This document shows positions 24,868 through 45,086 of a stretch of DNA of 45,884 nucleotides, piece by piece. A program made the translations under genes and the position numbers. The notes beneath the pieces were generated by a model. That model saw nothing but the letters and a program-made list of their open reading frames with translations, did not search any database and was not told the DNA's origin. Numbering within the stretch: position 1 is the stretch's first letter; every line of letters begins with the position of its first letter. Source of the stretch: a virus; the IMG/VR virus record IMGVR_UViG_3300013006_001152, positions 1 to 45,884 of that record; one strand, given 5' to 3'.

Positions 24868-25194
24868 TTAATCGTCATCTTCATTTTCTTCTTCACTACA
24901 ATCGGCATCATCGTAGTATTTTTTTATTGTTTTTAAAAATATTTTTTGAACAGTGTATCTTATAATTTCATTTTCTTCATCACCATCAGTTGCTGGATTA
25001 TCTTTTGTATACACATAAAAAATAATATCTGTAAGACCATCAAGAACAACTTCTGTATATTTACCTTTTCCAAGAAAACTACCAAATTTATTTATATAAT
25101 AACAAGGTTGCTGGTCTTCCATTTCCCCAGCCAGTAATTCTTTTAAATATTCTGGAGAAATTCTCCTTAATAAAAATTCTAAACTTTTATCCAT
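24868..25194 (-). CDS. RR-module small acidic protein
   Basis: 108 residues. Lacks the long leader but starts M-D-K-S-L-E-F-L-L-R-R-I-S-P-E-Y-L-K-E-L-L, the core of a family repeated across this window (F-L-R-R-V-T-P-E-E and similar). C-terminal D-D-A-D-C-S-E-E-E-N-E-D-D-D is strongly acidic. Confidence 0.6.
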   Translation of the reverse strand: MDKSLEFLLRRISPEYLKELLAGEMEDQQPCYYINKFGSFLGKGKYTEVVLDGLTDIIFYVYTKDNPATDGDEENEIIRYTVQKIFLKTIKKYYDDADCSEEENEDDD

Positions 25195-25195
25195 A

Positions 25196-25957
25196 TTAAA
25201 ATTTTATTTTAGTTAAATCAACAACTGGAATAAAAGTATCGGTTTTTAATTCAACTGGTTCTTTTTCATTTTGCCATTTCTTATAGAAATCTAAATTTCT
25301 AGAAGCGTCTTCGTCGTTTTCAAAATCCTCATCAGAAAAATATTCAAATTTAGAATGTCTCATATTTTCTGGTAAACGCATATAAATATCATTCATATAT
25401 TCTTCTAATTCTCTATTAAATTCAGTACCAAACTTATCTCTATATTCTTCATCAACATATCTAAATAAATATAGTCCTTCCAATTCAAGATGAGATAGAA
25501 GAAAATCAAATTTTTCGTAATTTTTTGGTGGTGTTACATTATAAAAATCATAAAACTTATTTAGATTAAATTTAAAATTAACGTAACCAAAAGCTCCGTA
25601 TTTTTTGTCATAATTAATATCAATGTCCATAACAAATGGATATTCGTCTTTAATGTGTTTTAGTAGGAGTTTTTTTCCGGCATCAGCCCTTTTAATTTCA
25701 GATTCAGAAATTACTGGATTTTTTTTTCCGGTAATCGATTCTTTAATATCAACAACACCTATAATTTCTTTTTTTTCTGGTAACGATTTTTTATAGTCTT
25801 GCCATTCTTGTTCATCTTTAAATTCTAACATATGTGATTGATAAACCGGTTCCTCACCCTTACCTGGTGAAAACTTAATTGCAACACCTTTTTTTATTGG
25901 TCTATCTTCAGTTAATAACTTTGTTAATTGTTCTTCTGTTAGAATATAGTTTTTCAT
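25196..25957 (-). CDS. LTEE-tagged protein, unknown
   Basis: 253 residues. Leader M-K-N-Y-I-L-T-E-E-Q-L-T-K-L-L-T-E-D. Then a mixed alpha/beta sequence with I-G-V-V-D-I-K-E-S and S-E-I-K-R-A-D-A-G-K-K-L-L-L. No family recognised; ATATTTAT element just upstream. Confidence 0.6.
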   Translation of the reverse strand: MKNYILTEEQLTKLLTEDRPIKKGVAIKFSPGKGEEPVYQSHMLEFKDEQEWQDYKKSLPEKKEIIGVVDIKESITGKKNPVISESEIKRADAGKKLLLKHIKDEYPFVMDIDINYDKKYGAFGYVNFKFNLNKFYDFYNVTPPKNYEKFDFLLSHLELEGLYLFRYVDEEYRDKFGTEFNRELEEYMNDIYMRLPENMRHSKFEYFSDEDFENDEDASRNLDFYKKWQNEKEPVELKTDTFIPVVDLTKIKF

Positions 25958-25969
25958 ATATTATAAATA

Positions 25970-26260
25970 TTAGTGCATTGGATAATCTCTTCTTAGATTA
26001 TTATAATACATATCAATTAAGGATCCAAAGATATTTGACACATACTCAATCATCTTATCCATATCTTCTTTACCTAATTCATTAACATCAATTTTATGTA
26101 AAACAAATAAAAAAGCATCAATTGATGATGATATAAGTTCTCTTTTAAAACTTTCTCTATTTTTTGTATCAAAAAAAGCGTGTATTGCGGCACGTTTCAT
26201 AATTTTTTCAAATTTCTGACCATTAAACCTTCTTAAAAAAAATGATGGTACTTTATTCAT
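25970..26260 (-). CDS. RR-module protein
   Basis: 96 residues from ATG 26260, chosen because it lies just after the upstream stop at 26263. Starts M-N-K-V-P-S-F-F-L-R-R-F-N-G-Q-K-F; the rest is helical, ending in D-M-Y-Y-N-N-L-R-R-D-Y, the family's terminal pattern. Confidence 0.55.
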   Translation of the reverse strand: MNKVPSFFLRRFNGQKFEKIMKRAAIHAFFDTKNRESFKRELISSSIDAFLFVLHKIDVNELGKEDMDKMIEYVSNIFGSLIDMYYNNLRRDYPMH

Positions 26261-26262
26261 AA

Positions 26263-26718
26263 TTAATAATCCCACTCATCATCAATATAATCTGAATCTC
26301 CATATTCAGTATTACTAACCCAATCCCAAGGGTCAATTTCGTCATTGTCTTTAAGTTCGTATAAATAACTTTGATCCACATCATCACTAACATATGTTAA
26401 TAATGTACCACTATGTGTTGTAAAAGAAGTTTGTCTTTCTTTTACAATGAATTGAATGTCCATTTCATTAAGTTTTGGCCTATCAATATTTTCAGTGTTA
26501 AAGTTATTGTTATAACTAAACACATAATAAAGATATTCTTTATCGAGTCTTGATAAGGAACCACCAATTGGTGCTGCAAGCTGTTTTTCCGATTGACCAT
26601 CTATACCATTAACGAAATTTCCAACATCTAGTGCTAATTGATCAAGAATTGGTGAAGCATATTTCATATACTTGATTAAGTGTTTGTCCGAAAAGTTTTC
26701 AAATAAAGAGTTTTCCAT
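26263..26718 (-). CDS. Acidic protein, unknown
   Basis: 151 residues. M-E-N-S-L-F-E-N-F-S-D-K-H-L-I-K-Y start without a leader. Many Asp/Tyr in the C-terminus (D-D-E-W-D-Y). No family recognised; position between tagged genes suggests the same functional set. Confidence 0.55.
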   Translation of the reverse strand: MENSLFENFSDKHLIKYMKYASPILDQLALDVGNFVNGIDGQSEKQLAAPIGGSLSRLDKEYLYYVFSYNNNFNTENIDRPKLNEMDIQFIVKERQTSFTTHSGTLLTYVSDDVDQSYLYELKDNDEIDPWDWVSNTEYGDSDYIDDEWDY

Positions 26719-26726
26719 AGTAATTT

Positions 26727-27125
26727 TTATTTATTACCTCTTGATATTGTACCACCAAAATATTTGTTTAACAATCTAGTTTGTTCATCGTCGCTTATTT
26801 GTAAAATATGTCCATTTTGGAGTTCTTTCGCCGTTTTACGACCAGTGTAATTCAATCTAAATTCACCAACACTTTCGCGCCGACCATTATCTTCCATTTC
26901 ATCAATTGTAAAATTAACAACACCATTAACGTCTTTTGGTTCAAGTCTACTAATAAGTTTAACATTGGTTTTACCCATCCACCTTTTTACTTTAATATAA
27001 TGTTCATCATCATTTTTTTTTCTTTTAAACGGATTAAAAAACTCATCAATTTCTGTTGTTTCGTTAATCATCCGTCTAATAATTCTTGTTAAATCTGATT
27101 CTGTAAGTCTTATAATTTTTTTCAT
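26727..27125 (-). CDS. LTES-tagged protein, unknown
   Basis: 132 residues. Leader M-K-K-I-I-R-L-T-E-S-D-L-T-R-I-I-R-R-M-I-N-E, the canonical form. Then a basic beta-rich small domain (K-V-K-R-W-M-G-K-T-N-V-K-L). No family. Confidence 0.6.
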   Translation of the reverse strand: MKKIIRLTESDLTRIIRRMINETTEIDEFFNPFKRKKNDDEHYIKVKRWMGKTNVKLISRLEPKDVNGVVNFTIDEMEDNGRRESVGEFRLNYTGRKTAKELQNGHILQISDDEQTRLLNKYFGGTISRGNK

Positions 27126-27152
27126 ACTATAATTTTATTATAAATATATCAT

Positions 27153-28154
27153 TTATAAAGATATTTTCCTTTCCCAAGCTTGATATAGACGATCTTTATA
27201 TTTTTTTATTAGGATTGGTTTTAAATCCCAATACATCCCCATAATTTTATCTCTACTCTCGTCCTTATAAACCACACCATAGTCAGGATCCTCCTCGGTT
27301 TCAATTTCATCACCCTTTCTATCCATAATAAAGTCGTGAAGAAGATCACCAATAACAACACTTGAAAAATATTTTAAATCATCCATCGGTGGCGTTGATA
27401 GAATGTAGCTAGTTATATTATCATCAAAATATTTTAAATCATCCAGTGTTATTCTTCTTTTAAGAAATGGTGGAAGATCAGTAAACAATCTTTCATACTG
27501 GGATTCTGTTAATTGTTTTTTATGTTTATTATAAAAATCTACTAATTCTTGATAAAAATGTGACTGAACAAATACCTTAATTTGATTTCTAAAAGTAACA
27601 TAATCAAAATCAGTCCCTTTCTCTTCTAGTCTTCCGGCAAGGATATCACCAATAAACATAGATGTTGCATGAATAAAACCATCTTTATCCAAACCTTTGG
27701 CAGTACGTATAAAAAGATCCTCATACTCTTTAAGTATATCTTCAATCTCACCAACTCTTCGGTAAAGATGTTTTCTTTTATTAGCAATAGATTCATTTAT
27801 ATTTCCACGTTGTGTATGATATCCCATATGATAATCATACAATACATCGTGATATTTCTTTTTTAGAAATGGAATTAATTGCCAAAAAATTTTAGATATA
27901 ATATTTTCCTCATTATCCCAATCATCATTATCAAAGTCTTGGTTAATTTCTTCAATTTTATAGTCGTGAATAAACTCATTTAAAGAATCTTGTAAATTAC
28001 CCTCAAGGTACTTATCAAAATCTTGTCCAACATAATATCTTTTATTGTTACGAATAACATCATCAAGAATATCAAAATCTCTTTCGGTCATCCTCCTTTT
28101 AACAGATGGGGGGATGAGGTTATAAAGTTGTTCTTCTGTAATTATTATTTTCAT
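27153..28154 (-). CDS. Triple RR-module protein with internal tag
   Basis: 333 residues. Leader M-K-I-I-I-T-E-E-Q-L-Y-N-L then module 1 (V-K-R-R-M-T-E-R-D-F). A second module follows near residue 130 (L-Y-R-R-V-G-E-I-E-D). At 214-223 a former leader Q-L-T-E-S-Q-Y-E-R-L precedes module 3 (L-K-R-R-I-T-L-D-D-L). So it looks like fused family members, the third with its tag still visible. The end matches the family (K-K-Y-K-D-R-L-Y-Q-A-W). Starts as ATGA overlapping the small gene upstream. Confidence 0.65.
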   Translation of the reverse strand: MKIIITEEQLYNLIPPSVKRRMTERDFDILDDVIRNNKRYYVGQDFDKYLEGNLQDSLNEFIHDYKIEEINQDFDNDDWDNEENIISKIFWQLIPFLKKKYHDVLYDYHMGYHTQRGNINESIANKRKHLYRRVGEIEDILKEYEDLFIRTAKGLDKDGFIHATSMFIGDILAGRLEEKGTDFDYVTFRNQIKVFVQSHFYQELVDFYNKHKKQLTESQYERLFTDLPPFLKRRITLDDLKYFDDNITSYILSTPPMDDLKYFSSVVIGDLLHDFIMDRKGDEIETEEDPDYGVVYKDESRDKIMGMYWDLKPILIKKYKDRLYQAWERKISL

Positions 28155-28342
28155 AATAGTCTAAATCTTAATAATGGTTTTCCATTAATTGTAATATCCC
28201 CTTTTTCATTTTTACCAATAGTTTTAACAACAATCTTTTTGTTTTTAAATTTACCACCCATAATTATATCCCCAACTTTAATGTCAAGTTTAATCATTTC
28301 TGTAATATGTTTGTATTGTTGTTCGGTTATAATGATTTTCAT
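28151..28342 (-). CDS. ITEQ-tagged mini SH3-like protein
   Basis: 63 residues. Leader M-K-I-I-I-T-E-Q-Q-Y-K-H-I then a small beta-rich basic domain (V-G-D-I-I-M-G-G-K-F-K-N-K-K-I-V). Shows that the leader is attached even to very small domains. Confidence 0.6.
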   Translation of the reverse strand: MKIIITEQQYKHITEMIKLDIKVGDIIMGGKFKNKKIVVKTIGKNEKGDITINGKPLLRFRLL

Positions 28343-28343
28343 A

Positions 28344-28712
28344 TTATAATAAATACTTAATATATTTATGCTCTAATCTCCTTAAAATAAAATTTTTGAG
28401 GTCTTTTGATATACTATCAAAATCAACAGTATAATACCCACTATAACTTTTCGGGACATCAAGCGACTCATCGTAATTTACCCCAATACCAAATTGGTCA
28501 TTTATATGAAGCGCAAAAAGAATTTTTCTTGTATCAAACCAAATTTCCTGAAGATAAACAATATCATTATCCCTATACAATTCCAGTCCACCTGGTACCC
28601 TATCCTCAAGTTCCTTAACTAATTTTTTTGGTAACTCCCAGTAAAGAAGATCAGTCTCGGTAACTTCCTCTTTAAGTGCTCGTTTAATAATATTTATTAG
28701 TTCAGTTCCCAT
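28344..28712 (-). CDS. Tagged protein, unknown
   Basis: 122 residues. Leader G-T-E-L-I-N-I-I-K-R-A-L-K-E-E (amphipathic, with A-L-K-E-E). Alpha/beta body and C-terminal I-L-R-R-L-E-H-K-Y. AGTATTTAT lies upstream. Confidence 0.55.
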   Translation of the reverse strand: MGTELINIIKRALKEEVTETDLLYWELPKKLVKELEDRVPGGLELYRDNDIVYLQEIWFDTRKILFALHINDQFGIGVNYDESLDVPKSYSGYYTVDFDSISKDLKNFILRRLEHKYIKYLL

Positions 28713-28734
28713 ATTATAATAAATACTTTATAAA

Positions 28735-28768
28735 ACAAAAAACCCCACCTGTTATGGATGGGGGTTAT
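28735..28768 (-). terminator. Rho-independent terminator
   Basis: CCCCACC ... GGATGGGGG with A-run on the plus strand (T-run on minus). Follows the 212-residue gene on the minus strand. The same CCCCAC core recurs at three other minus-strand terminators. Confidence 0.75.
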
Positions 28769-28775
28769 ACGAATT

Positions 28776-29414
28776 TTATGACCAAACAGTAGGTTTTGGT
28801 GAAAATTTAGATTCCAAATTTTCAAGATTACTTTGTATTTTATTTAAATTACTTAAACTTTTATTTATTTTTGTTAATTCAGTATTACAACCACTTTTAA
28901 CATTACCGACAATTGTGTTTATTTTTGAGGCCACGGTTGTTTCCATTTTGTCAAATGAAACATTAAGTTTGGTTTGTAAACTTGAAACGGAATTTATTCT
29001 AAGTTTGGCCCCATAAAAATATGTCCCAAGTGCCGTTGCCGTTTGATTACCAAAAATCCCATCTCTTCCTATATTATGACCAATTGCGATTAAAAAGTCT
29101 TGTATCTCACCAGCATTGGCTCTAGGTATTTTTATAGTATTATAGGGTGAACATCTTTTATTAATTTTATTTTTTGCTTCTGTTACATCTTTTATTAAAG
29201 TCTGCACTTTTTTTAATTGAACTCGAGTGTCATTTAAACTTTTGAGATCACCGCCAGTACTAGAACCACCACCAAAATCAATGTCCGGTCCCCATCCCAT
29301 TCCGGGTCCTTCAGAAACGGCAGCTTCAGCAAAGGTCAACCACCATTGTTCTTCAATTACCCGTTTAACAATTCTAGTTAAATCTGATTCTGTTAATGTT
29401 ATTATTTTTTTCAT
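28776..29414 (-). CDS. LTES-tagged protein with peptidoglycan-binding-like domain
   Basis: 212 residues from ATG 29414, because that ATG starts the canonical leader (M-K-K-I-I-T-L-T-E-S-D-L-T-R-I-V-K-R-V-I-E-E); an in-frame upstream extension to 29594 has no leader. After a Gly-rich linker, I-Q-D-F-L-I-A-I-G-H-N-I-G-R-D-G-I-F-G-N-Q-T-A-T-A is a peptidoglycan-binding repeat like that of the 854-residue protein. A coiled coil follows (residues about 160-200). Confidence 0.65.
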   Translation of the reverse strand: MKKIITLTESDLTRIVKRVIEEQWWLTFAEAAVSEGPGMGWGPDIDFGGGSSTGGDLKSLNDTRVQLKKVQTLIKDVTEAKNKINKRCSPYNTIKIPRANAGEIQDFLIAIGHNIGRDGIFGNQTATALGTYFYGAKLRINSVSSLQTKLNVSFDKMETTVASKINTIVGNVKSGCNTELTKINKSLSNLNKIQSNLENLESKFSPKPTVWS

Positions 29415-29535
29415 AATAAGTCGCTTTATAAATAAATATATTGACCATTCAAAAAACGCGGCCGGGAAAAACCATTTAAAATCACGGACGAAGTCCGGGT
29501 TCGGTTTACACCCCCAATAAGAAAAGAAGAATTTT

Positions 29536-29916
29536 TTATCTAGATTTACCTTTGTACCAGGCCTTATGTAACTTATCTTTATAATGGTCTTCAAAAAAAG
29601 GGATTAATTCCCAATACTTATCAAAAACTTCTTTCAAACTATCGTTATTATAAACCGCCCTAAAATCGGGGCCCTCCTCATACTCGGTTTCAATTTCATC
29701 ATCCTTTCTCTCAAGAACAAATTCATGCATGACCTGTGAAATAACATTATAAGAAAATTCATCAAAGTCGGATGACCAAAGTAAACTATCGTGAATGTTT
29801 TTATTTAAATTGTTATCAAAATATTCAAAATCATCTGGGGTTATTCTTCTTTTAAGAGAAGTGGGTAATTCCTTAAATAACATTTCGTACTGGGATTCGG
29901 TTATAATAATTTTCAT
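29536..29916 (-). CDS. ITES-tagged RR-module protein
   Basis: 126 residues. Leader M-K-I-I-I-T-E-S-Q-Y-E-M-L then S-L-K-R-R-I-T-P-D-D-F-E-Y-F-D-N-N-L. Closest to the gene at 30277 and to module 3 of 27153. Ends Y-K-D-K-L-H-K-A-W. Function unknown. Confidence 0.65.
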   Translation of the reverse strand: MKIIITESQYEMLFKELPTSLKRRITPDDFEYFDNNLNKNIHDSLLWSSDFDEFSYNVISQVMHEFVLERKDDEIETEYEEGPDFRAVYNNDSLKEVFDKYWELIPFFEDHYKDKLHKAWYKGKSR

Positions 29917-29931
29917 AATAATATTTTTAAT

Positions 29932-30261
29932 TTACCAACGGGATTTATCACACATACGAACAAACATATTTCTAATGTAATTCCCGTAGTTTTCCTCAAC
30001 AACTTTATTTAATAGATTAATATCCATATTTGCCCCACCCCTATCAGAATCATCGTGAAAGAAATCCCAATTCCGAACGGTAAAGTCTTCAATACATTGT
30101 TCCACAAAACCGTCATAAAATGAATACGGACCATTATTACGACACCACCAAGCATTGTGTTCACTCATTTCATAGTCATCAATCCTTTTTTCAACAACCT
30201 CAACAAATTCCTGTAACCGTCTAAGAATATAATTTTGATTTTCTGTAATAATAATTTTCAT
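29932..30261 (-). CDS. ITEN-tagged RR-module protein
   Basis: 109 residues. Leader M-K-I-I-I-T-E-N-Q-N-Y-I-L-R-R-L. Body with W-W-C-R-N-N-G and D-S-D-R-G-G. Weaker member of the RR family. Confidence 0.6.
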   Translation of the reverse strand: MKIIITENQNYILRRLQEFVEVVEKRIDDYEMSEHNAWWCRNNGPYSFYDGFVEQCIEDFTVRNWDFFHDDSDRGGANMDINLLNKVVEENYGNYIRNMFVRMCDKSRW

Positions 30262-30276
30262 ATAGGAAAGAATTTT

Positions 30277-30642
30277 TTATCTGGACCTACCTTTTACCTT
30301 CCAGGCCTGGTATAATATATTTTTATATCTTTTTTCAAGAAATGGTATAATTTCAAAGTAAAGATCAAAAACTTTAGTTATCTCTGGTGTCATACCAAAC
30401 ATATCAAGTTCAACGCCTGGTGGTACTGCTGGTAATTCATCATATTTTTTACCTAAAACAAATTCATTAACAAGATCACTAATAACATCATAAGAAAATT
30501 TATTAAAATTCGGTACCCAACGTATATCATCAATATGATAAACTAAATTAGTATCAAAGTATTTAAAATCATCCGGGGTTAATCTTCTTTTAAGAGAATT
30601 AGATAATACATTGTACTGGGATTCAGTTATTATTATTTTCAT
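30277..30642 (-). CDS. ITES-tagged RR-module protein
   Basis: 121 residues. Leader M-K-I-I-I-T-E-S-Q-Y-N-V-L then S-L-K-R-R-L-T-P-D-D-F-K-Y-F-D-T-N-L; ends Y-K-N-I-L-Y-Q-A-W. Paralogue of the gene at 29536, suggesting tandem duplication with divergence. Confidence 0.65.
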   Translation of the reverse strand: MKIIITESQYNVLSNSLKRRLTPDDFKYFDTNLVYHIDDIRWVPNFNKFSYDVISDLVNEFVLGKKYDELPAVPPGVELDMFGMTPEITKVFDLYFEIIPFLEKRYKNILYQAWKVKGRSR

Positions 30643-30663
30643 AATAATAAATATATCATAAAA

Positions 30664-30694
30664 TAAAAAACCCCACTTAGGGTTGGGGGTTAAC
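30664..30694 (-). terminator. Rho-independent terminator
   Basis: AACCCC / GGGGTT stem with T-run on the minus strand, after the stop of the 104-residue gene. Confidence 0.65.
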
Positions 30695-30710
30695 TTAATA
30701 TAAAATATTT

Positions 30711-31025: not shown

Positions 31026-31053
31026 TTTGTTATTTTTTTTTAATTATCTTAAA

Positions 31054-31107
31054 TATAAATATATCCGCGTTATAATAATTGCCGTATAATCCGAATTTTT
31101 TTTAAAA
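31054..31107 (-). repeat. Repeat R1, copy 1 (upstream of tagged gene)
   Basis: 54 bp, same as 31539-31592 with four mismatches. Lies directly upstream of the gene at 31025 on the minus strand and contains the ATATTTAT element; probably a repeated promoter/leader region. Confidence 0.8.
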
Positions 31108-31914: not shown

Positions 31915-32226
31915 TTAAAATAGGGGGTCTTGTTGTAGACTACCAGGTTTCTTGTTGTCATATATCTTTCTTATCTCACCTCTTAGTTCATAGACAATGT
32001 AATCTCTAAGCTCTGTACGTAAAGGATATTTTCCCCCACGTCCATCAAATGGTACCATATAACTTGGAAGTTCATTTAAGGTTGTTAATGCAACATAAGA
32101 AATATAATTTTGAAAATCAGTAAACTCGGTTGGATCAACAAATTGTAATACATTATTAAGTTTCTCCTCAACGGCCGGAAGTCTTCTAAGGTAAGTAAAT
32201 TGTGATTCTGTTATAATGATTTTCAT
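31915..32226 (-). CDS. ITES-tagged RR-like protein
   Basis: 103 residues from ATG 32226, chosen because the leader M-K-I-I-I-T-E-S-Q-F-T-Y-L-R-R-L begins there and the upstream gene stops at 32243. Helical body, end with S-L-Q-Q-D-P-L-F. Intergenic 31819-31914 is AT-rich with no other gene. Confidence 0.6.
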   Translation of the reverse strand: MKIIITESQFTYLRRLPAVEEKLNNVLQFVDPTEFTDFQNYISYVALTTLNELPSYMVPFDGRGGKYPLRTELRDYIVYELRGEIRKIYDNKKPGSLQQDPLF

Positions 32227-32242: not shown

Positions 32243-32575
32243 TTAACATTCGTTATCTTCTTCCCACACACTAACAAGATCATCGTAGTATTCCTTATAC
32301 ATTAGATTTTCCACTTCTTCTCTTTCCGGTTGATCATCTTCTTCTCTTTCCGGTTGATCATCATAATCTATCTCTTCATCCGAATCATCATACCCTTCAT
32401 CTTTATAGAAAAAACTTAATCCCTGACTAATACAAAAATCAGCGTAATCCTCACTGTCTTCAAAATTACACGGATCCTGAATTTCTGTTTGATACTCAAT
32501 AATATCTCTAAGTTCCTGGAGTCTTCTAAGTCTTTGGAAAATTTTGTTTTGAGATTCTGTAATAATGTATTTCAT
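32243..32575 (-). CDS. ITES-tagged acidic protein with repeat
   Basis: 110 residues. Leader M-K-Y-I-I-T-E-S-Q-N-K-I-F. Contains a tandem D-D-Q-P-E-R-E-E duplication (exact at DNA level) within an acidic tract. RR motif (R-L-R-R-L) directly after the leader. Confidence 0.6.
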   Translation of the reverse strand: MKYIITESQNKIFQRLRRLQELRDIIEYQTEIQDPCNFEDSEDYADFCISQGLSFFYKDEGYDDSDEEIDYDDQPEREEDDQPEREEVENLMYKEYYDDLVSVWEEDNEC

Positions 32576-32632: not shown

Positions 32633-33289
32633 TTATTTTTTAATTACATAATTACATTTTTCGCATAACCATATTTTTTCTAAATCAACTTGTGTTATAG
32701 TACCTTTTGCGTCGTTCATCATACAGTGTGGGTTATTATCACAGTGACCCAAACCTAAATTATGACCAATTTCGTGAAGCGCAACTTTTTTTAATCTATC
32801 TTTTACAATATTTTCATTCACATTTCTTTTCATTCTAAAAGTTGAGACCACACAGGTAGTTCCTGGTCTATAACCAAGTCCAAGAATCCCCCATTCTGGA
32901 TATTGATTTTTTGATGTGGCAATATCTTTTTCTGTTAAAATTAAATAATTTTGTTTAGTGTCAAATTTTTCTAATATTTTACCAGCAGAATATCTAACGC
33001 CACTTACTGTTAATAAATCATTAGTTAAAGGTTTTGTTTCTTTTATTATACAATCAAAATGATAAAAAGACTCGACAGATTCTTTAACTAGTTTTAAATA
33101 CTCTTGATTTACATCACCTAATGGTTGAATAAAAATGACGGTATTTGTCTTTTTGATTTTTTTAATCTGGGTTTTTTTATTATTTTTTTTTATATTATTT
33201 TGTGTTGGGGTTTTGAAAAGCCCGTAAACAAAATAACCAAAAAGAAGAAGAATTATTAATAATCCGATTAAATAAAATAGTTTTTTCAT
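32633..33289 (-). CDS. Archaemetzincin-like membrane-anchored metalloprotease
   Basis: 218 residues from ATG 33289, chosen because a host-type promoter lies directly upstream; a longer start at 33307 would lie inside it. N-terminal TM (L-I-G-L-L-I-I-L-L-L-F-G-Y-F-V). The motif H172-E-I-G-H176-N-L-G-L-G-H182-C183, C189-M-M, then 17 residues and C209-E-K-C212 is the archaemetzincin (M54) signature HExxHxxGxxHC..CxM-x17-CxxC; only the spacing between the first two Cys is one longer than usual. A zinc peptidase that also binds structural zinc. Untagged, with its own host promoter, unlike its neighbours; likely host-derived or a moron. Confidence 0.8.
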   Translation of the reverse strand: MKKLFYLIGLLIILLLFGYFVYGLFKTPTQNNIKKNNKKTQIKKIKKTNTVIFIQPLGDVNQEYLKLVKESVESFYHFDCIIKETKPLTNDLLTVSGVRYSAGKILEKFDTKQNYLILTEKDIATSKNQYPEWGILGLGYRPGTTCVVSTFRMKRNVNENIVKDRLKKVALHEIGHNLGLGHCDNNPHCMMNDAKGTITQVDLEKIWLCEKCNYVIKK

Positions 33290-33304
33290 AGTTTTAAATT
33301 TATC

Positions 33305-33335
33305 CAAAGATACATAAATTTTTAAGATACTACAA
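33305..33335 (-). promoter_or_regulatory. Bacteroidetes-type promoter
   Basis: On the minus strand TATCTTTG (33312-33305) with TTG at 33335-33333 and a 20-bp spacer. The TSS would be near 33298, just before ATG 33289. Confidence 0.7.
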
Positions 33336-36901: not shown

Positions 36902-37429
36902 TTAATCTAACCATTTAGCGTTTAATCCGATATATACATTAGGTTGTATAAACCCATTGGGGAATTGTATAAATGTCTGTGTGGTTCTATGCCACCCTTC
37001 ACCTAATACATATTTACCATCTTTGGTTTTAAGTAAAATAATTGGTTCTTCAGATATTCCCTTACTTTGAAGTAACTCTTTTTGTGTTTCGTGTCTTTCA
37101 GTATCTTTATCAACATCTTGTCTTACTTCACCTTGTATTCTACTTTCTAACTCTTTTTTTGTTTTATCGGTAAATATATCCATTGATATTGGAAAATCTT
37201 TTTGAAACTCCCATTCTACATCTTTAACATACTCATCAATCCATTCTGTAATACCTTCATATGTGTTTACATCGTCTGATTGTTTAATCATTTTATAAAC
37301 CCAATCTCTTATTACATATTCAGGAGTGTTTGGTAGTTTTTCTTTTAACCAATTAAACATTCCTTGTCTTGTTTCTGTAACAATCCCCATCATTGATTGT
37401 ATTCTTGATATTTGTTCTTGTAGATTCAT
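36902..37429 (-). CDS. MNLQEQ-tagged protein with ParB/Srx-like motif
   Basis: 175 residues. Leader M-N-L-Q-E-Q-I-S-R-I-Q-S-M-M-G-I-V-T-E-T is nearly identical to the next gene's. C-terminal half has P-I-I-L-L-K-T-K-D-G-K and G-E-G-W-H-R-T-T-Q, like the core of ParB/sulfiredoxin-fold domains (G-x-H/W-R-T). Activity not claimed. TAATG overlap with the gene at 37429-37950. Confidence 0.55.
   Translation of the reverse strand: MNLQEQISRIQSMMGIVTETRQGMFNWLKEKLPNTPEYVIRDWVYKMIKQSDDVNTYEGITEWIDEYVKDVEWEFQKDFPISMDIFTDKTKKELESRIQGEVRQDVDKDTERHETQKELLQSKGISEEPIILLKTKDGKYVLGEGWHRTTQTFIQFPNGFIQPNVYIGLNAKWLD
37385..37429 (-). repeat. 45-bp leader repeat, copy 1
   Basis: Encodes the N-terminal 15 residues; matches 37906-37950 with two mismatches. 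DNA conservation beyond what neighbouring code shows suggests recent duplication of the leader itself. Confidence 0.85.
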
Positions 37430-37950
37430 TATGCTCCGTAATTAAAATCAATATTTTTTATTAACTCTGAAGAAATGATGCCATTGTATGTTATTGACCT
37501 CCATAAATCTAAACTCTCTATAATTTTATCTTCATCATTTTCTGACTTATTCCATCCGTATAAATTCATTTTATAATCATCGTCCACATCAAATAAATCA
37601 TTATCTAATTTTGTTATATCCACGGTTAGTCTAACAATTGGTTTTTTATCATATGATTCTTCATCTTCATAATATTCATCCATGACATCCATTAAACTTT
37701 GTGGTAGATTGGCGTTATATAAACTTGGGGATGTTGTTAAAAAAATACCTTCCGTTCCTTCTTCATAAAAAGAATTGGGGTATCTTTTAGGGATTAATCC
37801 TTCATCAATTATACTTTCTAAATTATCAGTTAAGGTATAATGATATAGGTACTTACCACCAATTAAATAATTGGATATCCTATTAGATAGATTTTCATTA
37901 ATAACCCCCATCATTGATTGTATCCTTGATATTTGTTCTTGTAGGTTCAT
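37429..37950 (-). CDS. MNLQEQ-tagged protein, possible DarT/ART-like fold
   Basis: 173 residues. Leader as above. Then Y-L-Y-H-Y-T-L-T-D-N-L-E-S-I-I-D-E-G-L-I-P and E-G-I-F-L-T-T-S-P-S-L-Y, which follows the ART-fold pattern of DarT-like and RNA 2'-phosphotransferase-type proteins (H-x-T, N-L, G-L). No definite catalytic Glu is visible. Next to the ParB-like gene, with which it overlaps. Would fit a T4-Alt-like packaged modifier, as inference. Confidence 0.55.
   Translation of the reverse strand: MNLQEQISRIQSMMGVINENLSNRISNYLIGGKYLYHYTLTDNLESIIDEGLIPKRYPNSFYEEGTEGIFLTTSPSLYNANLPQSLMDVMDEYYEDEESYDKKPIVRLTVDITKLDNDLFDVDDDYKMNLYGWNKSENDEDKIIESLDLWRSITYNGIISSELIKNIDFNYGA
37906..37950 (-). repeat. 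45-bp leader repeat, copy 2
   Basis: Partner of 37385-37429. Confidence 0.85.
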
Positions 37951-38047
37951 ATTATTTTGTTTTCTTTACACAGTTAGGGTATCTCTTACCAAACATTGTC
38001 TTCATACCTTTTTGAGTATATCCTGCCCAACATTTTTCTGTAAGTTC
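37930..38047 (-). repeat. Tail-plus-leader junction repeat, copy 1
   Basis: 118 bp equal to 39034-39151 except four mismatches seen. Covers the C-terminal 30 codons of one gene, its stop, and the first codons of the next gene, so it crosses a gene boundary. Confidence 0.85.
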
Positions 38048-38359
38048 ACTTTCTTTCATTTCTTGTTGGCTATTAGTTAATCTATTATATAACTTTCTGG
38101 TGCGACCTTTAAGAAGATTACTAAAGTATTCCACAAGTTTATCATACATTTGTTCAATATGTAAATCTATGTGATCCATAATGTGTAAATCCTCAACAAT
38201 TATTACAGCAATAGCATGATTGAGGTCATAAAAACTATAGTCCTGGTCAAACTCATTTTCAGCAAATTCATAGCTTGAATCTATAATAGACTCAAGTGTT
38301 GGTTGGTCTATTCTTCTTAATAGATAATTCCTAACCTTATTTTGTTCTTGTAGGTTCAT
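37952..38359 (-). CDS. MNLQEQ-tagged RR-module protein with Cys tail
   Basis: 135 residues. Leader M-N-L-Q-E-Q-N-K then V-R-N-Y-L-L-R-R-I-D-Q-P-T-L. Tail L-T-E-K-C-W-A-G-Y-T-Q-K-G-M-K, ending R-Y-P-N-C-V-K-K-T-K; this module is known to me from T4-like marine phages. The same tail ends the gene at 39056. Confidence 0.65.
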   Translation of the reverse strand: MNLQEQNKVRNYLLRRIDQPTLESIIDSSYEFAENEFDQDYSFYDLNHAIAVIIVEDLHIMDHIDLHIEQMYDKLVEYFSNLLKGRTRKLYNRLTNSQQEMKESELTEKCWAGYTQKGMKTMFGKRYPNCVKKTK

Positions 38360-38360: not shown

Positions 38361-38720
38361 TTAACAATTTTTTAAAGCTTCTTTAAAGTAATCTCTTATG
38401 TATTGTTCATAAACACCTTCATTTATTAATTTTTCAACTGTTCTTTGATGGTTTAAAAGTTCCGCAATAGAAGGTTCCTCATTATCAAATTGAGCCATCC
38501 TAAATGAAATATCATAAATTATTGATTGTTTAAGTTGACTCACAAAATGATCTTCCGCATCACCAAAAGTTAGTTTATCCCATTCTTCATCCGAGTATGG
38601 TGAATTACAAATATCTTGTTGTGAAAAATTTTCATCAAGATGTTCTATCATAAAACCATAAATTCTTCTCAAGTAAGAATTTAATTTATTGTGTTGTTCT
38701 TCTGTGATTAGGATTTTCAT
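38361..38720 (-). CDS. ITEE-tagged RR-module protein
   Basis: 119 residues from ATG 38720, where the leader M-K-I-L-I-T-E-E-Q-H-N-K-L begins; an in-frame start at 38798 would overlap the upstream gene by 59 nt. Then Y-L-R-R-I-Y-G-F-M. A different leader from its MNLQEQ neighbours. Confidence 0.6.
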   Translation of the reverse strand: MKILITEEQHNKLNSYLRRIYGFMIEHLDENFSQQDICNSPYSDEEWDKLTFGDAEDHFVSQLKQSIIYDISFRMAQFDNEEPSIAELLNHQRTVEKLINEGVYEQYIRDYFKEALKNC

Positions 38721-38739
38721 ATTAATAAATATTATTGTA

Positions 38740-39054
38740 TTACATAAACCGCCACTTATTATAGATGTTACGTATTTTATCATCATACATTTCAGCAACT
38801 TGATTTACATAATCAATTTCTTCTTGTTCTGGTAAGTCTTCCCACCCCATCTTATATTCTTGCCACATAACTTCTTCTAATGACTTTAAAACCAATTGAT
38901 ATTTAAAATCTTCGTAAGTCTCTGTCTCAAAAAATACTTGGCCGTCAAATGTAGAGAAATTTTTTGCAACTTCTTCCGGTGTTACTCTTCTAAGAAAGAA
39001 TTTTGTTTTGAGTTCTTCCCTTAATACTTTTCTTATTTGTTCTTGTAGGTTCAT
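38740..39054 (-). CDS. MNLQEQ-tagged RR-module protein
   Basis: 104 residues. Leader M-N-L-Q-E-Q-I-R-K-V-L-R-E-E (V-L-R-E site), F-F-L-R-R-V-T-P-E-E-V, end M-Y-D-D-K-I-R-N-I-Y. The simplest complete example of leader plus module. Confidence 0.65.
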   Translation of the reverse strand: MNLQEQIRKVLREELKTKFFLRRVTPEEVAKNFSTFDGQVFFETETYEDFKYQLVLKSLEEVMWQEYKMGWEDLPEQEEIDYVNQVAEMYDDKIRNIYNKWRFM

Positions 39055-39151
39055 ATTATTTTGTTTTCTTTACACAGTTAGGATATCTTTTACCAAACAT
39101 TGTCTTCATACCTTTTTGAGTATATCCCGCCCAACACTTTTCTGTAAGTTC
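39034..39151 (-). repeat. Tail-plus-leader junction repeat, copy 2
   Basis: Partner of 37930-38047. Confidence 0.85.
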
Positions 39152-39640
39152 TGTTTCCTGTAAATCCATTTCATCCTCATCATCCTCATTTATAATTTGG
39201 TCGGAATCTAATATTATCGTTACACCTCTATTAGCAAATGCTGGTTCCCAAATTGCACTTGATTTGAATGGGAAAAATTTATTTATTTTCTCGGACATAG
39301 TTCTTGTAACCCAAGATTCCACATTACTAACATAAACATTTGTATCAAACTGTATTTTAATACGTACTTTATCTGGTTTATTTCTATTAATCTCTAAAAA
39401 TGATATATTAATACCTTCTAATTCAGTATGATTGATAAAATTCTTTACCAACATTTCTTGTGTCTTTATATCATCTAAATCAAGATTTAATATTTTGACA
39501 AGATTATCAAGTCCACCAACCGCATTTGATGCTAACTCAATACCAACTTCATCAATAAGATTTTGTAACCTTATCTTACGTGATGATTTTTCTTCAACAT
39601 CCTCTTGTAATATTCTTTTTATGTGTTCTTGTAGGTTCAT
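39056..39640 (-). CDS. MNLQEH-tagged protein with Cys tail
   Basis: 194 residues. Leader M-N-L-Q-E-H-I-K-R-I-L-Q-E-D. Then I-E-L-A-S-N-A-V-G-G-L-D-N-L-V-K-I-L, shared with the 43611 gene. Tail identical to the 37952 gene (L-T-E-K-C-W-A-G-Y ... N-C-V). ATGA overlap with the next gene's frame at 39637-39640. Confidence 0.6.
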   Translation of the reverse strand: MNLQEHIKRILQEDVEEKSSRKIRLQNLIDEVGIELASNAVGGLDNLVKILNLDLDDIKTQEMLVKNFINHTELEGINISFLEINRNKPDKVRIKIQFDTNVYVSNVESWVTRTMSEKINKFFPFKSSAIWEPAFANRGVTIILDSDQIINEDDEDEMDLQETELTEKCWAGYTQKGMKTMFGKRYPNCVKKTK

Positions 39641-40341
39641 TCGTTACCGATTAATTCATTATATTTTTCTTCTATTCTATCACCAAAAAAACTTTTAAGA
39701 AAATAAAAAACATTATCATACCATTGAGTATCTTCTGGTGTTGTTGATTCTATTAACCAATGGATTCCATCTATTGTATTTGATATAGTATAATTTCTAA
39801 ATTCAGCTAACGACATTGTGTCTCTCTTATTAAAAATCCTTACCGCAAATATGAGAGATTCATTAAATTCTTGTTCCAATTCATTTGGTGTAACTCTACG
39901 GAAAACCATATTGGCTGGGTTTGTTTCTTCCTTTAATACCTTTCTTATTTGTTCTTGTAGGTTTTTTGGTTCAAATCTTTCTCTTTTTTTCCAAATATGT
40001 CCACCTTCTATTGTTTGGTTAAACCCTTTTGTTTTTGAATTAACGATTGGTAGGTTAAAATAATCTGATATTTTTTGATAAACTATTGTTGCAATTCCTT
40101 GTTTTCTATATTTTTCAGGAATAAAGATATCACCCACAATTATTTCATTATCTTTGATTACAATATTCATTTTTCCAAGACCAGGAACATCGTCTTCACT
40201 GGTGATATCTTGGTCGTCAACCATAATGATAATATTTTGAACTTTACCAAAATGTCTTTCCGCACTTCGTCCTAACCGAATCTGAATTTTATCTTCTTCA
40301 ATTTCCCTTAATATTCTTCTTATGTTCTCTTGTAGGTTCAC
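39637..40341 (-). CDS. Fusion: GNAT-like plus RR-module, internal former leader
   Basis: 234 residues, GTG start at 40341. Leader M-N-L-Q-E-N-I-R-R-I-L-R-E-I. N-terminal half GNAT-like: V-G-D-I-F-I-P-E-K-Y-R-K-Q-G-I-A-T-I-V-Y-Q (acetyl-CoA loop). At about residue 126 the sequence P-K-N-L-Q-E-Q-I-R-K-V-L-K-E-E is a second leader whose start Met codon is no longer there, then V-F-R-R-V-T-P-N-E-L. The second half is a full RR module ending I-E-E-K-Y-N-E-L. So two cargo genes have fused after loss of the stop and start. Confidence 0.7.
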   Translation of the reverse strand: MNLQENIRRILREIEEDKIQIRLGRSAERHFGKVQNIIIMVDDQDITSEDDVPGLGKMNIVIKDNEIIVGDIFIPEKYRKQGIATIVYQKISDYFNLPIVNSKTKGFNQTIEGGHIWKKRERFEPKNLQEQIRKVLKEETNPANMVFRRVTPNELEQEFNESLIFAVRIFNKRDTMSLAEFRNYTISNTIDGIHWLIESTTPEDTQWYDNVFYFLKSFFGDRIEEKYNELIGNE

Positions 40342-40356
40342 ATATATAAATACAAC

Positions 40357-41070: not shown

Positions 41071-41393
41071 AATAAAAATGATATGTATTGAGCTATTTTA
41101 TATCCAGCATATGCCCCAAGTGCTGCAGATCCTGGAAGGATAATAAATCTACCAAGTCTTGTTTGATATTTATCCCTATTTACAATATATGATATCAACA
41201 TATAGTAAAATATGAAATTTAAAAATACCATAACGTCAATCTCCTTTGACATAAAAACAACTATGGAGTTTCCCATAAATCCCCACATAAAGTTTATAAA
41301 AGTCTCTCTAATTAATTCTTTTGCCGTTGTGACGGCACCATAAATGTTTATCTTTTCATTCAATGGATTTTTAATTTCTTTTTTTGTTTTCAT
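41067..41393 (-). CDS. Membrane protein, unknown
   Basis: 108 residues with TM segments near 35-50, 52-68 and 85-105 (A-A-L-G-A-Y-A-G-Y-K-I-A-Q-Y). Coupled to its neighbours by ATGA and TAATG overlaps. Could be a partner of the phosphoesterase or glycosyltransferase. Confidence 0.55.
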   Translation of the reverse strand: MKTKKEIKNPLNEKINIYGAVTTAKELIRETFINFMWGFMGNSIVVFMSKEIDVMVFLNFIFYYMLISYIVNRDKYQTRLGRFIILPGSAALGAYAGYKIAQYISFLL

Positions 41394-41719
41394 TATATTA
41401 TTTTTTCTACGTATGTTGCTGTTTCACCAGATATAAATTCTTTTTCCAATAGTAATGGTAATGATGTCGGTTTGCACCACGCATAAACTAACCATCCTTC
41501 AAAATGTTTTTTAACATATTCCCACCTTGTTTCCCATAACATTCTAAACACTCCCTTTCTTCTGTGATCGTTACTTACCCAAGCATCAAGGAATTTAATT
41601 TTTTTATTGTCTTCTCTTTCCAAATAAATGTGACCAATTATTTCTCCATTTAACATCGCAACCCAAGTTTCAAGTTTCTGTGCGTTACTTTTTAAATGTA
41701 ATATTTTTATATCTTCCAT
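41393..41719 (-). CDS. GNAT-family acetyltransferase
   Basis: 108 residues from ATG 41719, chosen because the upstream gene stops at 41722. L-D-A-W-V-S-N-D-H-R-R-K-G-V-F-R-M-L-W fits the acetyl-CoA-binding motif (R/Q-x-x-G-x-G/A), with the second Gly replaced (V-F), so activity is less certain. Substrate unknown. Confidence 0.6.
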   Translation of the reverse strand: MEDIKILHLKSNAQKLETWVAMLNGEIIGHIYLEREDNKKIKFLDAWVSNDHRRKGVFRMLWETRWEYVKKHFEGWLVYAWCKPTSLPLLLEKEFISGETATYVEKII

Positions 41720-41721
41720 CC

Positions 41722-42426
41722 TTAATTCCAATATGTGTTGTCGTCATTAAAAAACTGTTTATTATTTCTATTTAAAAATGATTTGATCATTAACCTCAAC
41801 ATATATAACACTCCCTTGTTTTCAAATCTTCTTGGTGGTGTGAATACTGTTGTATTTATTATTTTAAATCTTTTTGGTTTTATTTGTTTGGATAGTAAAT
41901 AATCTTCCGCTACTTTTGCTTCCTCGTTGAACCCTCCTAATTTATTAAATGTGTTTGTTTTAAACAACATAAACCCACCTAAACAAAATGGTGAAATAAA
42001 TTTAGACATTTTTTGTATAAAATCAAATGTTTTAAACACATAATTATATTTTCCATTTGTTGTTCTTATCTTTGTTGTAAGTAAATCAATGTTCTCTGAC
42101 ATAATCACTTTAACAACATTGGTCAATAATTTAGTATCTAGTAAGAACATATCCGAATCTAAAAATAAAACGTATGGTGTTTTAACATATCTTGATCCGT
42201 TGTTTCTTGCTTTTGCTGGAAGTCCACCCTGTATTATTTTTAAATCAAACAAATCATTTGTTCTTGATTCTAATTGATATGTTGTTCCATCATCTGATGA
42301 ATCCGAAACAATGACGTTTACATCTTTTATATTATCCTGGAAATTTATTAAGGTTAGTGTGCTATCTATTGTTTTTGATTCATTTTTACAAGGAATCACT
42401 ATGGTTAATAATTTTGATAGTTCCAT
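41722..42426 (-). CDS. GT2-family glycosyltransferase
   Basis: 234 residues. L-T-I-V-I-P-C-K-N-E-S-K-T-I start, N-V-I-V-S-D-S-S-D-D-G-T, A-K-A-R-N-N-G, V-L-F-L-D90-S-D92 (DxD) and G-G-F-N with A-E-D-Y-L-L. Complete family-2 enzyme of compact length. Second GT2 in the window. Confidence 0.85.
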   Translation of the reverse strand: MELSKLLTIVIPCKNESKTIDSTLTLINFQDNIKDVNVIVSDSSDDGTTYQLESRTNDLFDLKIIQGGLPAKARNNGSRYVKTPYVLFLDSDMFLLDTKLLTNVVKVIMSENIDLLTTKIRTTNGKYNYVFKTFDFIQKMSKFISPFCLGGFMLFKTNTFNKLGGFNEEAKVAEDYLLSKQIKPKRFKIINTTVFTPPRRFENKGVLYMLRLMIKSFLNRNNKQFFNDDNTYWN

Positions 42427-42429
42427 TTA

Positions 42430-42729
42430 TTATAAATATTTGTTTCTACGAAAATAGTATTCCATAATTCTTGGTTGGTAGTGACTTTTTATTTGTTCAC
42501 CAACTGAATTATATAAAATTACATTTGAAAATGGACAATCGTCACCTAATGGTATGTCTTTTGTTATTTCTTGTTTAAGTAGTTCACAAATTAAATTAAC
42601 AAAGCTCTCATTGCAATAATCTATGTATATATCCATAAATTCATTTAATAATGGTGAAAATAATTCATTTAGTTTATCTTCTAAAACGCCAATTCTTCTG
42701 GTAAAATAATTTGTACTTCTTTGATCCAT
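42430..42729 (-). CDS. RR-module protein
   Basis: 99 residues from ATG 42729 (M-D-Q-R-S-T-N-Y-F-T-R-R-I-G-V-L-E-D-K); an in-frame ATG at 42744 exists. Similar to the RR modules, but without a leader. C-terminus R-I-M-E-Y-Y-F-R-R-N-K-Y-L. Confidence 0.55.
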   Translation of the reverse strand: MDQRSTNYFTRRIGVLEDKLNELFSPLLNEFMDIYIDYCNESFVNLICELLKQEITKDIPLGDDCPFSNVILYNSVGEQIKSHYQPRIMEYYFRRNKYL

Positions 42730-42759
42730 AAGAAAAGAATACAAAAATAATTTTAATAA

Positions 42760-43611
42760 TTAAATTCTATTATTTTTTTCTTTATTATAAACTTCCAATG
42801 TTGATGTTCCGCCACCAGAAATACGATTAAACATACCTTTAAAAAATGATTTTATCTGTGGCATAAAATTTCTTTTAATTCTATCAATTTTGTCTGAATC
42901 TTTTTCTGAAAAAGGTTGTTTCATTACAGTTGTGATTTTTAAAATATTTTCGTTATATCTTTTATCTTCTATCAAATCAACCATAAAACCATAAAAGTTA
43001 TCTGGAAATTCATAATCTTTGGTTAAATTATCAATCATTTTTTTAACCCTATTTTCTAACTTATTATGATTTGTTTTTTCTTCTTCTTCGTTAATATAAT
43101 TAAAATGGTCTATTCCTTTGAAGAGGTAGTTTACACTTATACTTTTAACCTCATCGAATTTTAATTTATCGGTAAGTTCTTCAACAAAATCACTTAATGT
43201 ATTTTGTATTTCATATTTTATTTCCCACCACATATCATATTCTCTAATATCATCACCAAGTAAATCATACGTAACATCATCACCCATAATTAAATCAACA
43301 GTTCCTTCTTCTATTGAAAAAACAAAATCGTGTTCGACACTCCTTTCTGATTTTTTTACAAATAATAATTTGAATTTGAAGTTATAACCACCCGTATTTT
43401 TTTCTATGTCGTCTGTTGAAAATGTTTCTTTACTTAGATATTTTGTAAGTAACATTTCTGGGGTTTCCTCTAATATACTGGCAAGATGATTGATACCACC
43501 AACAGCTCTTGTTATTAAAATAAAACCTTGATTTTTAATCATAGATAATATCTTTGATTTACGGTCAGTTTCTTCTTTTAATATTTTTTTTATGGATTGT
43601 CTAATATTCAT
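42760..43611 (-). CDS. MNIRQS-tagged protein, paralogue of 39056
   Basis: 283 residues from ATG 43611, where the leader M-N-I-R-Q-S-I-K-K-I-L-K-E-E begins (an in-frame ATG at 43629 overlaps the upstream stop). Then L-I-T-R-A-V-G-G-I-N-H-L-A-S-I-L, the same element as in the gene at 39056. Acidic and beta-rich afterwards. Confidence 0.6.
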   Translation of the reverse strand: MNIRQSIKKILKEETDRKSKILSMIKNQGFILITRAVGGINHLASILEETPEMLLTKYLSKETFSTDDIEKNTGGYNFKFKLLFVKKSERSVEHDFVFSIEEGTVDLIMGDDVTYDLLGDDIREYDMWWEIKYEIQNTLSDFVEELTDKLKFDEVKSISVNYLFKGIDHFNYINEEEEKTNHNKLENRVKKMIDNLTKDYEFPDNFYGFMVDLIEDKRYNENILKITTVMKQPFSEKDSDKIDRIKRNFMPQIKSFFKGMFNRISGGGTSTLEVYNKEKNNRI

Positions 43612-43612
43612 A

Positions 43613-44389
43613 TTATAGTATTCCGTCAATTACTTTAGCAATTTTTTTATAGATTGGAATATCGCCATGTGGTTCATTATTTCCAATTGGTGGTTCAACC
43701 ACTGTAGCACCTTCGTTTTTATATTTTTGATAATACTTTTTAACATCATCATCTTTGATATTTTTTAAAGGTCCAAAACCCCAAGCTCCCTGCACAACAA
43801 TAAAATCAGCATTAGGGAATTTTTTTTCCAATAATTCAAATAATTCACTAACATCATATTTTAAGTATTTACCAAATCCACCGTTGGTTCCCATACTTAT
43901 TATAACATTTTCTACGTTATTGTCTACTGGATATTTTTTAAGAGCGCCAATTAACCAGATAACACTCATTCCACCCAACCATAAAGAACTTTCACCACCT
44001 TTTTTATTTATTCTACTTGCTTTTTGAATTGCGTTGTCTAAATATGGTACTGTTGAGTCACCAATGATTATGTTTTTTAAATTACCATTAACAACTTCAT
44101 CATCCTCTTTTTTATTTTCTTTTTCTGGTTTTGTTTCTTTTTTGATTGTTTCAATTTTTTTTTCTATTTCTTTTTTTGTTGGCACATCATTTGTGTCTAC
44201 GTCATCTTTATCTTCTAATTCAATTCCAGTAACTTTTTTAAATACGTCTTTAACTTTAGATTTTAAAGTGTCAAAATTTAATCCAATTTTATCTAACACA
44301 TCATCATACCAAGCTTCATTTAACATTTCTTGTTCTGTGTATTTTTCAATAATCCGTTTTAATTGACTTTCAGTAATTTTAATTTTCAT
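43613..44389 (-). CDS. ITES-tagged SGNH/GDSL hydrolase-like
   Basis: 258 residues. Leader M-K-I-K-I-T-E-S-Q-L-K-R-I-I-E-K-Y-T-E-Q. A Lys/Glu linker follows to about residue 100. Then I-I-I-G110-D111-S112 (block I), W-L-G-G-M (block II), S-M-G-T-N169-G-G (block III) and E-P-H241-G-D (block V His). This fits an SGNH hydrolase, commonly esterases or acetyl hydrolases of polysaccharides or peptidoglycan. With the transpeptidases and peptidases it makes a wall-directed tagged set. Confidence 0.7.
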   Translation of the reverse strand: MKIKITESQLKRIIEKYTEQEMLNEAWYDDVLDKIGLNFDTLKSKVKDVFKKVTGIELEDKDDVDTNDVPTKKEIEKKIETIKKETKPEKENKKEDDEVVNGNLKNIIIGDSTVPYLDNAIQKASRINKKGGESSLWLGGMSVIWLIGALKKYPVDNNVENVIISMGTNGGFGKYLKYDVSELFELLEKKFPNADFIVVQGAWGFGPLKNIKDDDVKKYYQKYKNEGATVVEPPIGNNEPHGDIPIYKKIAKVIDGIL

Positions 44390-44390
44390 A

Positions 44391-45086
44391 TTAATAGTTT
44401 TCTCCTGTTAATTTAAACCATAAATCTTCTATTTTATCTTCGTACATTTCTTCCAATAAATCCATTACAGCGTCATACATATTAGAATCTTCCATAAAAC
44501 CATCAACTAAAATACCGTGTAGTCCATCCATCATATAATTTAGAAATCTTGTTTTGAAATCAAAAAAAGAGCGACCTGGATGACTATGACCTTCACTATA
44601 ATGTTTATAGTTCTCATAAAATTCGTCTTTTAATTCATTTTTTGATACTCTCCTAAATAAAAATTTTGCAGCATCTTTTTTATCGTATTTTGCTTCAGTT
44701 ATAACACTTTCTTTAAGTACTTTACCTTTGAAATCCATCCAGATTTTTAATATATCACCAGATTCTATTTGAACTCTTCTTTCAATACTTCTTAAAAAAT
44801 CACTTGTTTCTTTACCTTCTTGTCTTTTTAGTGCTCCGGCAATAACAACATTTTTTATTTCATCTGCCTTATCAAGAAGTTTTTCAACATTTTCATCTTC
44901 TTCAATATCAAAATAATCAATTTGTTTTTGTATCCATTCTCTACCACCATAAAGATATGGTGTTGCACCTAACATATTTGTCATTCCTGTTTTTTGTAAT
45001 ATGTTGAGGTATTCAAATATCTTTTTTAACGGATATTTTCCAACTAATTCAGAATACTTTATTAATATTTCGGTTTTTGGTTTCAT
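44391..45086 (-). CDS. RR-module protein with internal tag
   Basis: 231 residues. N-terminal part helical and unrecognised (I-F-E-Y-L-N-I-L). In the middle L-K-E-S-V-I-T-E-A-K-Y is a tag-like segment, followed by F-L-F-R-R-V-S-K-N-E-L and a C-terminal RR module ending M-Y-E-D-K-I-E-D-L-W. So again a fused arrangement. TAATG overlap with the upstream gene. Confidence 0.6.
   Translation of the reverse strand: MKPKTEILIKYSELVGKYPLKKIFEYLNILQKTGMTNMLGATPYLYGGREWIQKQIDYFDIEEDENVEKLLDKADEIKNVVIAGALKRQEGKETSDFLRSIERRVQIESGDILKIWMDFKGKVLKESVITEAKYDKKDAAKFLFRRVSKNELKDEFYENYKHYSEGHSHPGRSFFDFKTRFLNYMMDGLHGILVDGFMEDSNMYDAVMDLLEEMYEDKIEDLWFKLTGENY

Follow-up and report, generated by a model that had tools for sequence, protein, structure and literature searches.

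What is the role of the small proteins with a double-arginine motif that recur along one strand of an uncultured phage genome? The question is raised by the virus record IMGVR_UViG_3300013006_001152, analysed here over its complete length of 45,884 bases (hereafter the window), which is a fragment of a larger T4-like uncultured phage and in which a preliminary description had placed about 16 copies of an "RR module", interpreting them as one large set of paralogues without a known function. The present analysis confirmed that 14 of these copies belong to one divergent family of small helical modules. Judging from sequence, it is fairly probable that the modules are payloads of the phage head similar to the internal proteins of phage T4, tagged with leaders or strung together as polyproteins, packaged, cut by the head protease gp21 and injected.

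Every open reading frame (ORF) listed in the preliminary description was present at its coordinates, all on the - strand, and BLAST of these ORFs against each other linked several pairs. A profile built from modules of other records only, with all window modules excluded, recovered the 14 copies, which are spread over 12 ORFs, at domain E-values from 5e-5 to 3e-29, against a best value of 0.0065 among 3,444 reversed or shuffled control sequences; since window members had contributed to the profiles by which these modules were originally found, this test is held-out and not blind. When the sequence through the RR motif was removed, 11 of the 14 copies were still found at E <1e-8. A profile to profile comparison of the KRR-type and F/L-L-RR-type halves of the family gave a match over 91 columns (E 7e-9), and an intermediate member, present in the related records G001, G003 and G004, is matched by both the KRR-type and the FLRR-type profiles. 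Common to the copies are the RR, a loose [YF]-x3-[IL]-x3-[YWF] end and a helical fold.

The held-out profile, the profile-profile match and the shared order of helices described below bear out the proposed large paralogous family, and the three copies ascribed to ORF 27153 were indeed recovered as three domains. As to the number, ORF 32243 (E 2e-4) is a probable addition to the 14 confirmed copies while membership of ORF 38361 is not established, its E-value of 0.02-0.06 being the same as the control level. The family behind the motifs first used to recognise it is real, but taken literally the N-terminal motif is found in a single copy (38740) and the C-terminal motif in three (29536, 38740 and 44391), so that both are better regarded as loose consensus lines; a loose version of the C-terminal one is common. 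The position "after the leader" holds for the tagged copies but not for the three leaderless ones in the window (24868, 25970 and 42430), nor for 39637 and 44391, where the module is placed after an internal junction and not after a leader at the protein's own N-terminus.

The RR module is predicted to be a four-helix domain of about 100 residues. Two alignments without common rows, one of 21 A-type and one of 33 B-type modules, served as input for AlphaFold, and the models reached a predicted local distance difference test (pLDDT) of 90.9 for model A (29536, A-type) and 90.4 for model B (the module of 44391, B-type), with a predicted template modelling score (pTM) of 0.81 in both cases. In both models the RR occupies residues 14-15, helix 2 extends from residue 18 to 33/34, helix 3 starts at residues 42-43 and the last helical stretch runs almost to the C-terminal end, the A-type model having an extra hairpin between helices 3 and 4. 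The models thus appear to have a common four-helix order, as judged from the order of secondary structure together with the profile match and without superposition of coordinates. Unrelated folds among members had been named in advance as the observation that would speak against a family; the two divergent members gave confident models with equal helix order.

The RR-module family is previously undescribed, and no known family or solved structure was matched. Searches of Pfam, PHROGs and PDB sequences with the modules gave only weak and inconsistent matches, a tblastn search with 38740 gave none among 50,697 annotated phage records, and no relative was found in a collection of bacterial and archaeal genomes with one module as query; further scans for RR-module loci gave none that was new or none that was confirmed. 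Foldseek, run with both models against PDB and with model A against viral models, returned nothing at E <0.1. Membership in Pfam Imm63 was considered and rejected, a single A-type member scoring 22 bits against a cut-off of 26.7 and no B-type module matching at E 0.1. The toxins, to which the preliminary description had pointed as one possible source of the fold, gave no sequence or structural match.

Scans of IMG/VR and searches inside the records found yielded 81 modules from 13 records that were read, the window being one of them, with one further record read for its head genes only; between 2 and 14 modules were detected per record, some records being fragments. The relatives form an uncultured T4-like phage clade. 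Of the seven records longer than 60 kb that carry RR modules, six (G002, G003, G004, G012, G013 and G014) encode a T4 gp21-type protease (Pfam S77). G001 is the only one without an S77 match, and its module matches are near-identical to those of G003, which has gp21. The left 25 kb of the window, and sequence beyond them, are collinear with G013 in reversed orientation, the proteins being mostly 60-96% identical; in G013 gp21 is located at 63.2 kb and gp23 at 65.8-67.7 kb, and an orthologue of 24868, 83% identical, at 9910-10230. Copies related to 25970 occur in G002, G009, G010, G011, G013, G014 and G015. Between phages the RR proteins are less conserved than gp20, gp21 and gp23; those of G002 have a median identity of 41-52% with their relatives, compared with 73-89% for the three head proteins. 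Flavobacterium phage immuto (41% identity) and an uncultured phage of 484 kb are among the annotated records with the best capsid matches.

In T4, gp21 cleaves after L/I-X-E, the internal proteins carry targeting propeptides of 10-19 residues and gp23 loses a propeptide of 65 residues (PMC9026906). In this clade gp23, the major capsid protein, was read from G002, G003 and G013 and in all three contains LINE60/A (a slash marks a cut site, here and below), which is aligned with E65/A66 of T4 gp23. Three classes of N-terminal leader were found in 128 distinct proteins, each class having [LI]xE at fixed positions, namely 7-8 in class I, 9 and 21-23 in class II and 5 and 13 in class III; the first site was partly built into the search pattern, the second (13 in class III, 21-23 in class II) was not. 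Examples are MKIIITE/S, MNLQEQIRKVLRE/E and MKKIIRLTESDLTRIVKRVIKE/N. The leaders differ in synonymous codons, hence it is the protein sequence that is kept.

The internal junctions are a stronger test than the leaders. Among 16 distinct internal modules, defined by a start within a longer protein, 15 have [LI]xE within the 30 residues upstream, compared with a background of 29% of 30-residue stretches, and the remaining one is preceded by MNE; since the copies cannot be counted as independent events, these figures stand without a formal probability. In ORF 27153 the modules are situated at approximately 27801-28136, 27504-27800 and 27156-27497 and preceded by IITE, NINE and QLTE, respectively, and its module 2 begins an ORF of its own, led by MKIIITE, in G005, G006 and G008. 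In G011 and G013 the residues LIKE stand in front of a SEHLKGL-type module, where G014 has NITE, and the RRLPAVEE module, which has a class I leader in the window, comes after SLNE in G013. Units that are separate and leader-tagged in one phage are found fused, with the site kept, in another. ORF 39637 consists of a leader, a possible acetyltransferase-like domain (GNAT matches sub-threshold only), a second, internal leader (NLQEQIRKVLKE/E) and the RR module, and in ORF 44391 the module is preceded by an unrelated N-terminal domain and the junction VLKESVITE/A. A complete second leader, Met included, is also found inside the protein encoded at 87190-88128 of G002. This gp21-like cleavage signature of leaders and junctions supports the earlier suggestion that the fold be sought among internal proteins.

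Leaders are not confined to RR modules. An extracytoplasmic function (ECF)-type sigma factor of G001 (L035:17573-18151) starts with the leader MKIIITESQ and is possibly a packaged and injected transcription factor, and an enzyme of GH19/peptidoglycan-binding type is likewise fronted by a leader; both are plausible cargo for early infection. In G014 a leader-tagged gene (MKKVIRLTESDLTRIVKRVIQE..., L089:16633-17778) is located between gp21 and the next head genes (gp22-like).

According to the payload model the short leaders would serve as capsid-targeting sequences that bring the protein into the prohead core, where the T4-type gp21 protease would cut behind [LI]-x-E so that the leader is lost and strung or fused modules come apart, and one gene would thereby deliver several mature units. 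Leaving the head together with the DNA, the mature modules would act immediately in the host, each divergent copy perhaps binding a different host or defence protein, as with Ip1, Ip2 and Ip3 of T4, and leaderless copies would be made later, in the cell. In T4 itself the packaged Alt enzyme has relatives that stay unpackaged. Ip1, Ip2 and Ip3 have only the leader in common and each blocks one GmrSD enzyme (PMC12373910), which makes inhibition of varied defences the working idea for the RR modules; by analogy, a function in counter-defence or host takeover may be proposed. A more tentative suggestion is that the head protease serves the phage for processing polyproteins, splitting several divergent helical inhibitors encoded by one gene at [LI]xE and so providing a fast-changing packaged arsenal, every member directed at its own host defence, with a leaderless second wave.

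Several observations weigh against the payload model. Packaging, cutting, injection and target binding are steps that we infer, and the window ends before the head genes. About 24 of the 81 modules have no leader; these copies are probably produced in the cell, and in most of them the start lies 9-15 residues ahead of the RR, much as in tagged copies after the predicted cut. No specific depletion of [LI]xE was found inside tagged modules, the ratio of observed to expected being 1.0 in tagged and leaderless modules alike. The RR modules are mostly acidic, with a median isoelectric point of 4.9, while a basic nature is reported for the internal proteins of T4 (PMC9026906). Finally, the isolated phage immuto, with a capsid among the closest, has no RR modules and no clear leaders.

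The leaderless copies also agree with an action of the modules solely in the infected cell, the leaders serving otherwise, for example in binding a common partner, and the likeness to [LI]xE being incidental. That one leader-tagged payload is a sigma factor fits such a role, as does the shortness of the site, given its background frequency; it is opposed by the fixed [LI]xE of three leader classes, by the 15 of 16 internal junctions and by the site aligned with the T4 gp23 cut, and we regard an exclusively intracellular role as unlikely. The same leaders, junctions and gp23 site also fit modules that are packaged but structural, filling or ordering the prohead core or helping to condense or release the DNA, and the copies are many and small. 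A structural part would not be expected to vary so strongly in copy number (2 to 14 per record) and identity, however, and the modules are acidic, unlike DNA-condensing proteins, with leaderless copies for which the head offers no obvious structural use; such a role is considered unlikely as well.

The acidity in turn recalls the DNA mimic Ocr of phage T7, and RR modules of that type would block restriction or bacteriophage exclusion (BREX) enzymes. The median net charge per 100 residues is -6.2, compared with -1.2 for other phage proteins, and ORF 32243 as a whole has a net charge of -28. When model A was aligned structurally in a second look, Ocr chains took the first three places (Z 5.7, 5.1 and 4.8), the best with a root mean square deviation of 4.3 over 80 residues; such Z values are, however, common by chance for helical bundles, Foldseek gave no significant match and Ocr was absent from the corresponding list for model B. 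The strong negative charge over the fold that mimicry would demand is not general, as net charge in the window modules spans +3 to -28 and most copies are accordingly not DNA-like, which leaves Ocr-type mimicry very improbable. Least probable of all is that the modules are immunity or inhibitor domains silencing fused or adjacent enzymes in the producing cell. The fusions to other domains (39637 and G002 87190-88128) and a sub-threshold Imm63 match of one member (E 1e-4) would be in line with this, but Imm63 is matched by one of 21 A-type and none of 33 B-type modules, and most modules stand alone, without an enzyme partner.

Should the payload model be correct, the internal-protein strategy of T4 would extend to uncultured phages, leader plus [LI]xE would provide a sequence rule for finding packaged proteins, and, in the RR modules, a large family not described before would offer candidates for injected counter-defence proteins. 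Because the same units occur both split and fused, the cleavage model can be tested directly.

Table 1. RR-module proteins, predicted cut sites and one candidate in the window
Feature	Position	Strand	Support
RR-module protein, leaderless (MDKSLEFLLRR...)	24868..25194	-	held-out E 2e-17
RR-module protein, leaderless (MNKVPSFFLRR...)	25970..26275	-	held-out E 4e-17
Polyprotein with three RR modules	27153..28154	-	domain E 3e-22, 1e-17, 3e-29
Predicted cut after E217 (KQLTE/S), modules 2/3 of 27153	27504..27506	-	junction site
Predicted cut after E121 (GNINE/S), modules 1/2 of 27153	27792..27794	-	junction site
Predicted cut after leader E7 (MKIIITE/EQ), 27153 polyprotein	28134..28136	-	[LI]xE
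RR-module protein, class I leader MKIIITE/SQ; model A	29536..29916	-	held-out E 2e-26
RR-module protein, class I leader	29932..30261	-	held-out E 5e-17
RR-module protein, class I leader	30277..30642	-	held-out E 4e-23
RR-module protein, class I leader	31915..32226	-	held-out E 3e-6
Probable RR-module protein, class I leader, very acidic (net -28)	32243..32575	-	held-out E 2e-4
RR-module protein, MNLQEQ start, C-terminal tag ELTE/KCWAGYTQKGMKTMFGKRYPNCVKKTK	37952..38359	-	held-out E 2e-6
Candidate only, class I leader and YLRRI	38361..38720	-	E 0.02-0.06, control level
RR-module protein, class III leader MNLQEQIRKVLRE/E	38740..39054	-	held-out E 6e-12
Fusion ending in RR module (39640-39939)	39637..40341	-	module held-out E 4e-14
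RR-module protein, leaderless	42430..42744	-	held-out E 5e-5
Protein with RR module (44394-44693); model B	44391..45086	-	held-out E 9e-16

The protein of 31915 has its Met at 32226, the listed ORF beginning further upstream. The C-terminal tag of 37952 matches phrog_727 and others. The tag ELTEKCWAGYTQKGMKTMFGKRYPNCVKKTK, identical at the ends of 37952-38359 and 39056-39640, resembles several PHROGs of unknown function, and as LTE directly precedes its CWAGY part the tag could itself be a cleavable unit. When analysing the remaining window, an LTES leader motif was noted at an unusual place, near the C-terminus of a 776-aa protein (1259-3589), and a leader-tagged protein (37429-37950) was found to have the motif YHYT...GLIP in common with the G002 protein mentioned above (87190-88128, L051:7190-8128), which is also leader-tagged and whose N-terminal part, fused to the RR module, weakly matches RNA 2'-phosphotransferase (E 0.02). 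An ADP-ribosyltransferase-like reading of these two proteins, for which there are the motif and the weak match only, is not claimed. The protein encoded at 32633-33307 belongs to the M54 (archaemetzincin-like) metalloproteases (Pfam E 3e-11) and has a hydrophobic segment at its N-terminus. The C-terminal part of 16583-17149 reads like a sorting domain associated with gliding motility and the type IX secretion system (T9SS) (NRWGEVVWESNNPNGRWDGTF), a hallmark of Bacteroidota that suggests this group as host. In G002 the gp20 at the portal position (L047:14400-18422) reads as a protein of 1,340 aa with an intein-like start, YCIAGDTKIATTDGF, and a GIY-YIG-like ORF adjoins gp21, while the gp20 homologue of G014 has 617 aa and lacks the intein-like part.

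Among known systems, T7 Ocr resembles the RR modules as a small, acidic and helical protein that filled the top rows for model A, but there is no significant fold match and most RR members are far less charged; Ocr is not known to be packaged. In two reports on phiKZ and SPN3US (PMC10052503, PMC5694885), many head proteins are described as matured by the prohead protease and ejected with the DNA, as proposed here for the RR modules; these phages belong to another lineage, and the RR clade has T4-type head genes and one payload family of short modules. A parallel in design is offered by T4, where Ip1, Ip2, Ip3 and Alt likewise have a short N-terminal leader with an L/I-x-E site and several variable small payloads go with a T4-type head (gp21 and gp23). 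The T4 internal proteins are found in virions, a location that is predicted for the RR modules; the leaders of the RR modules differ in sequence and fall into three classes, and their payload is one large homologous family, helical and acidic, with cut sites inside the proteins.

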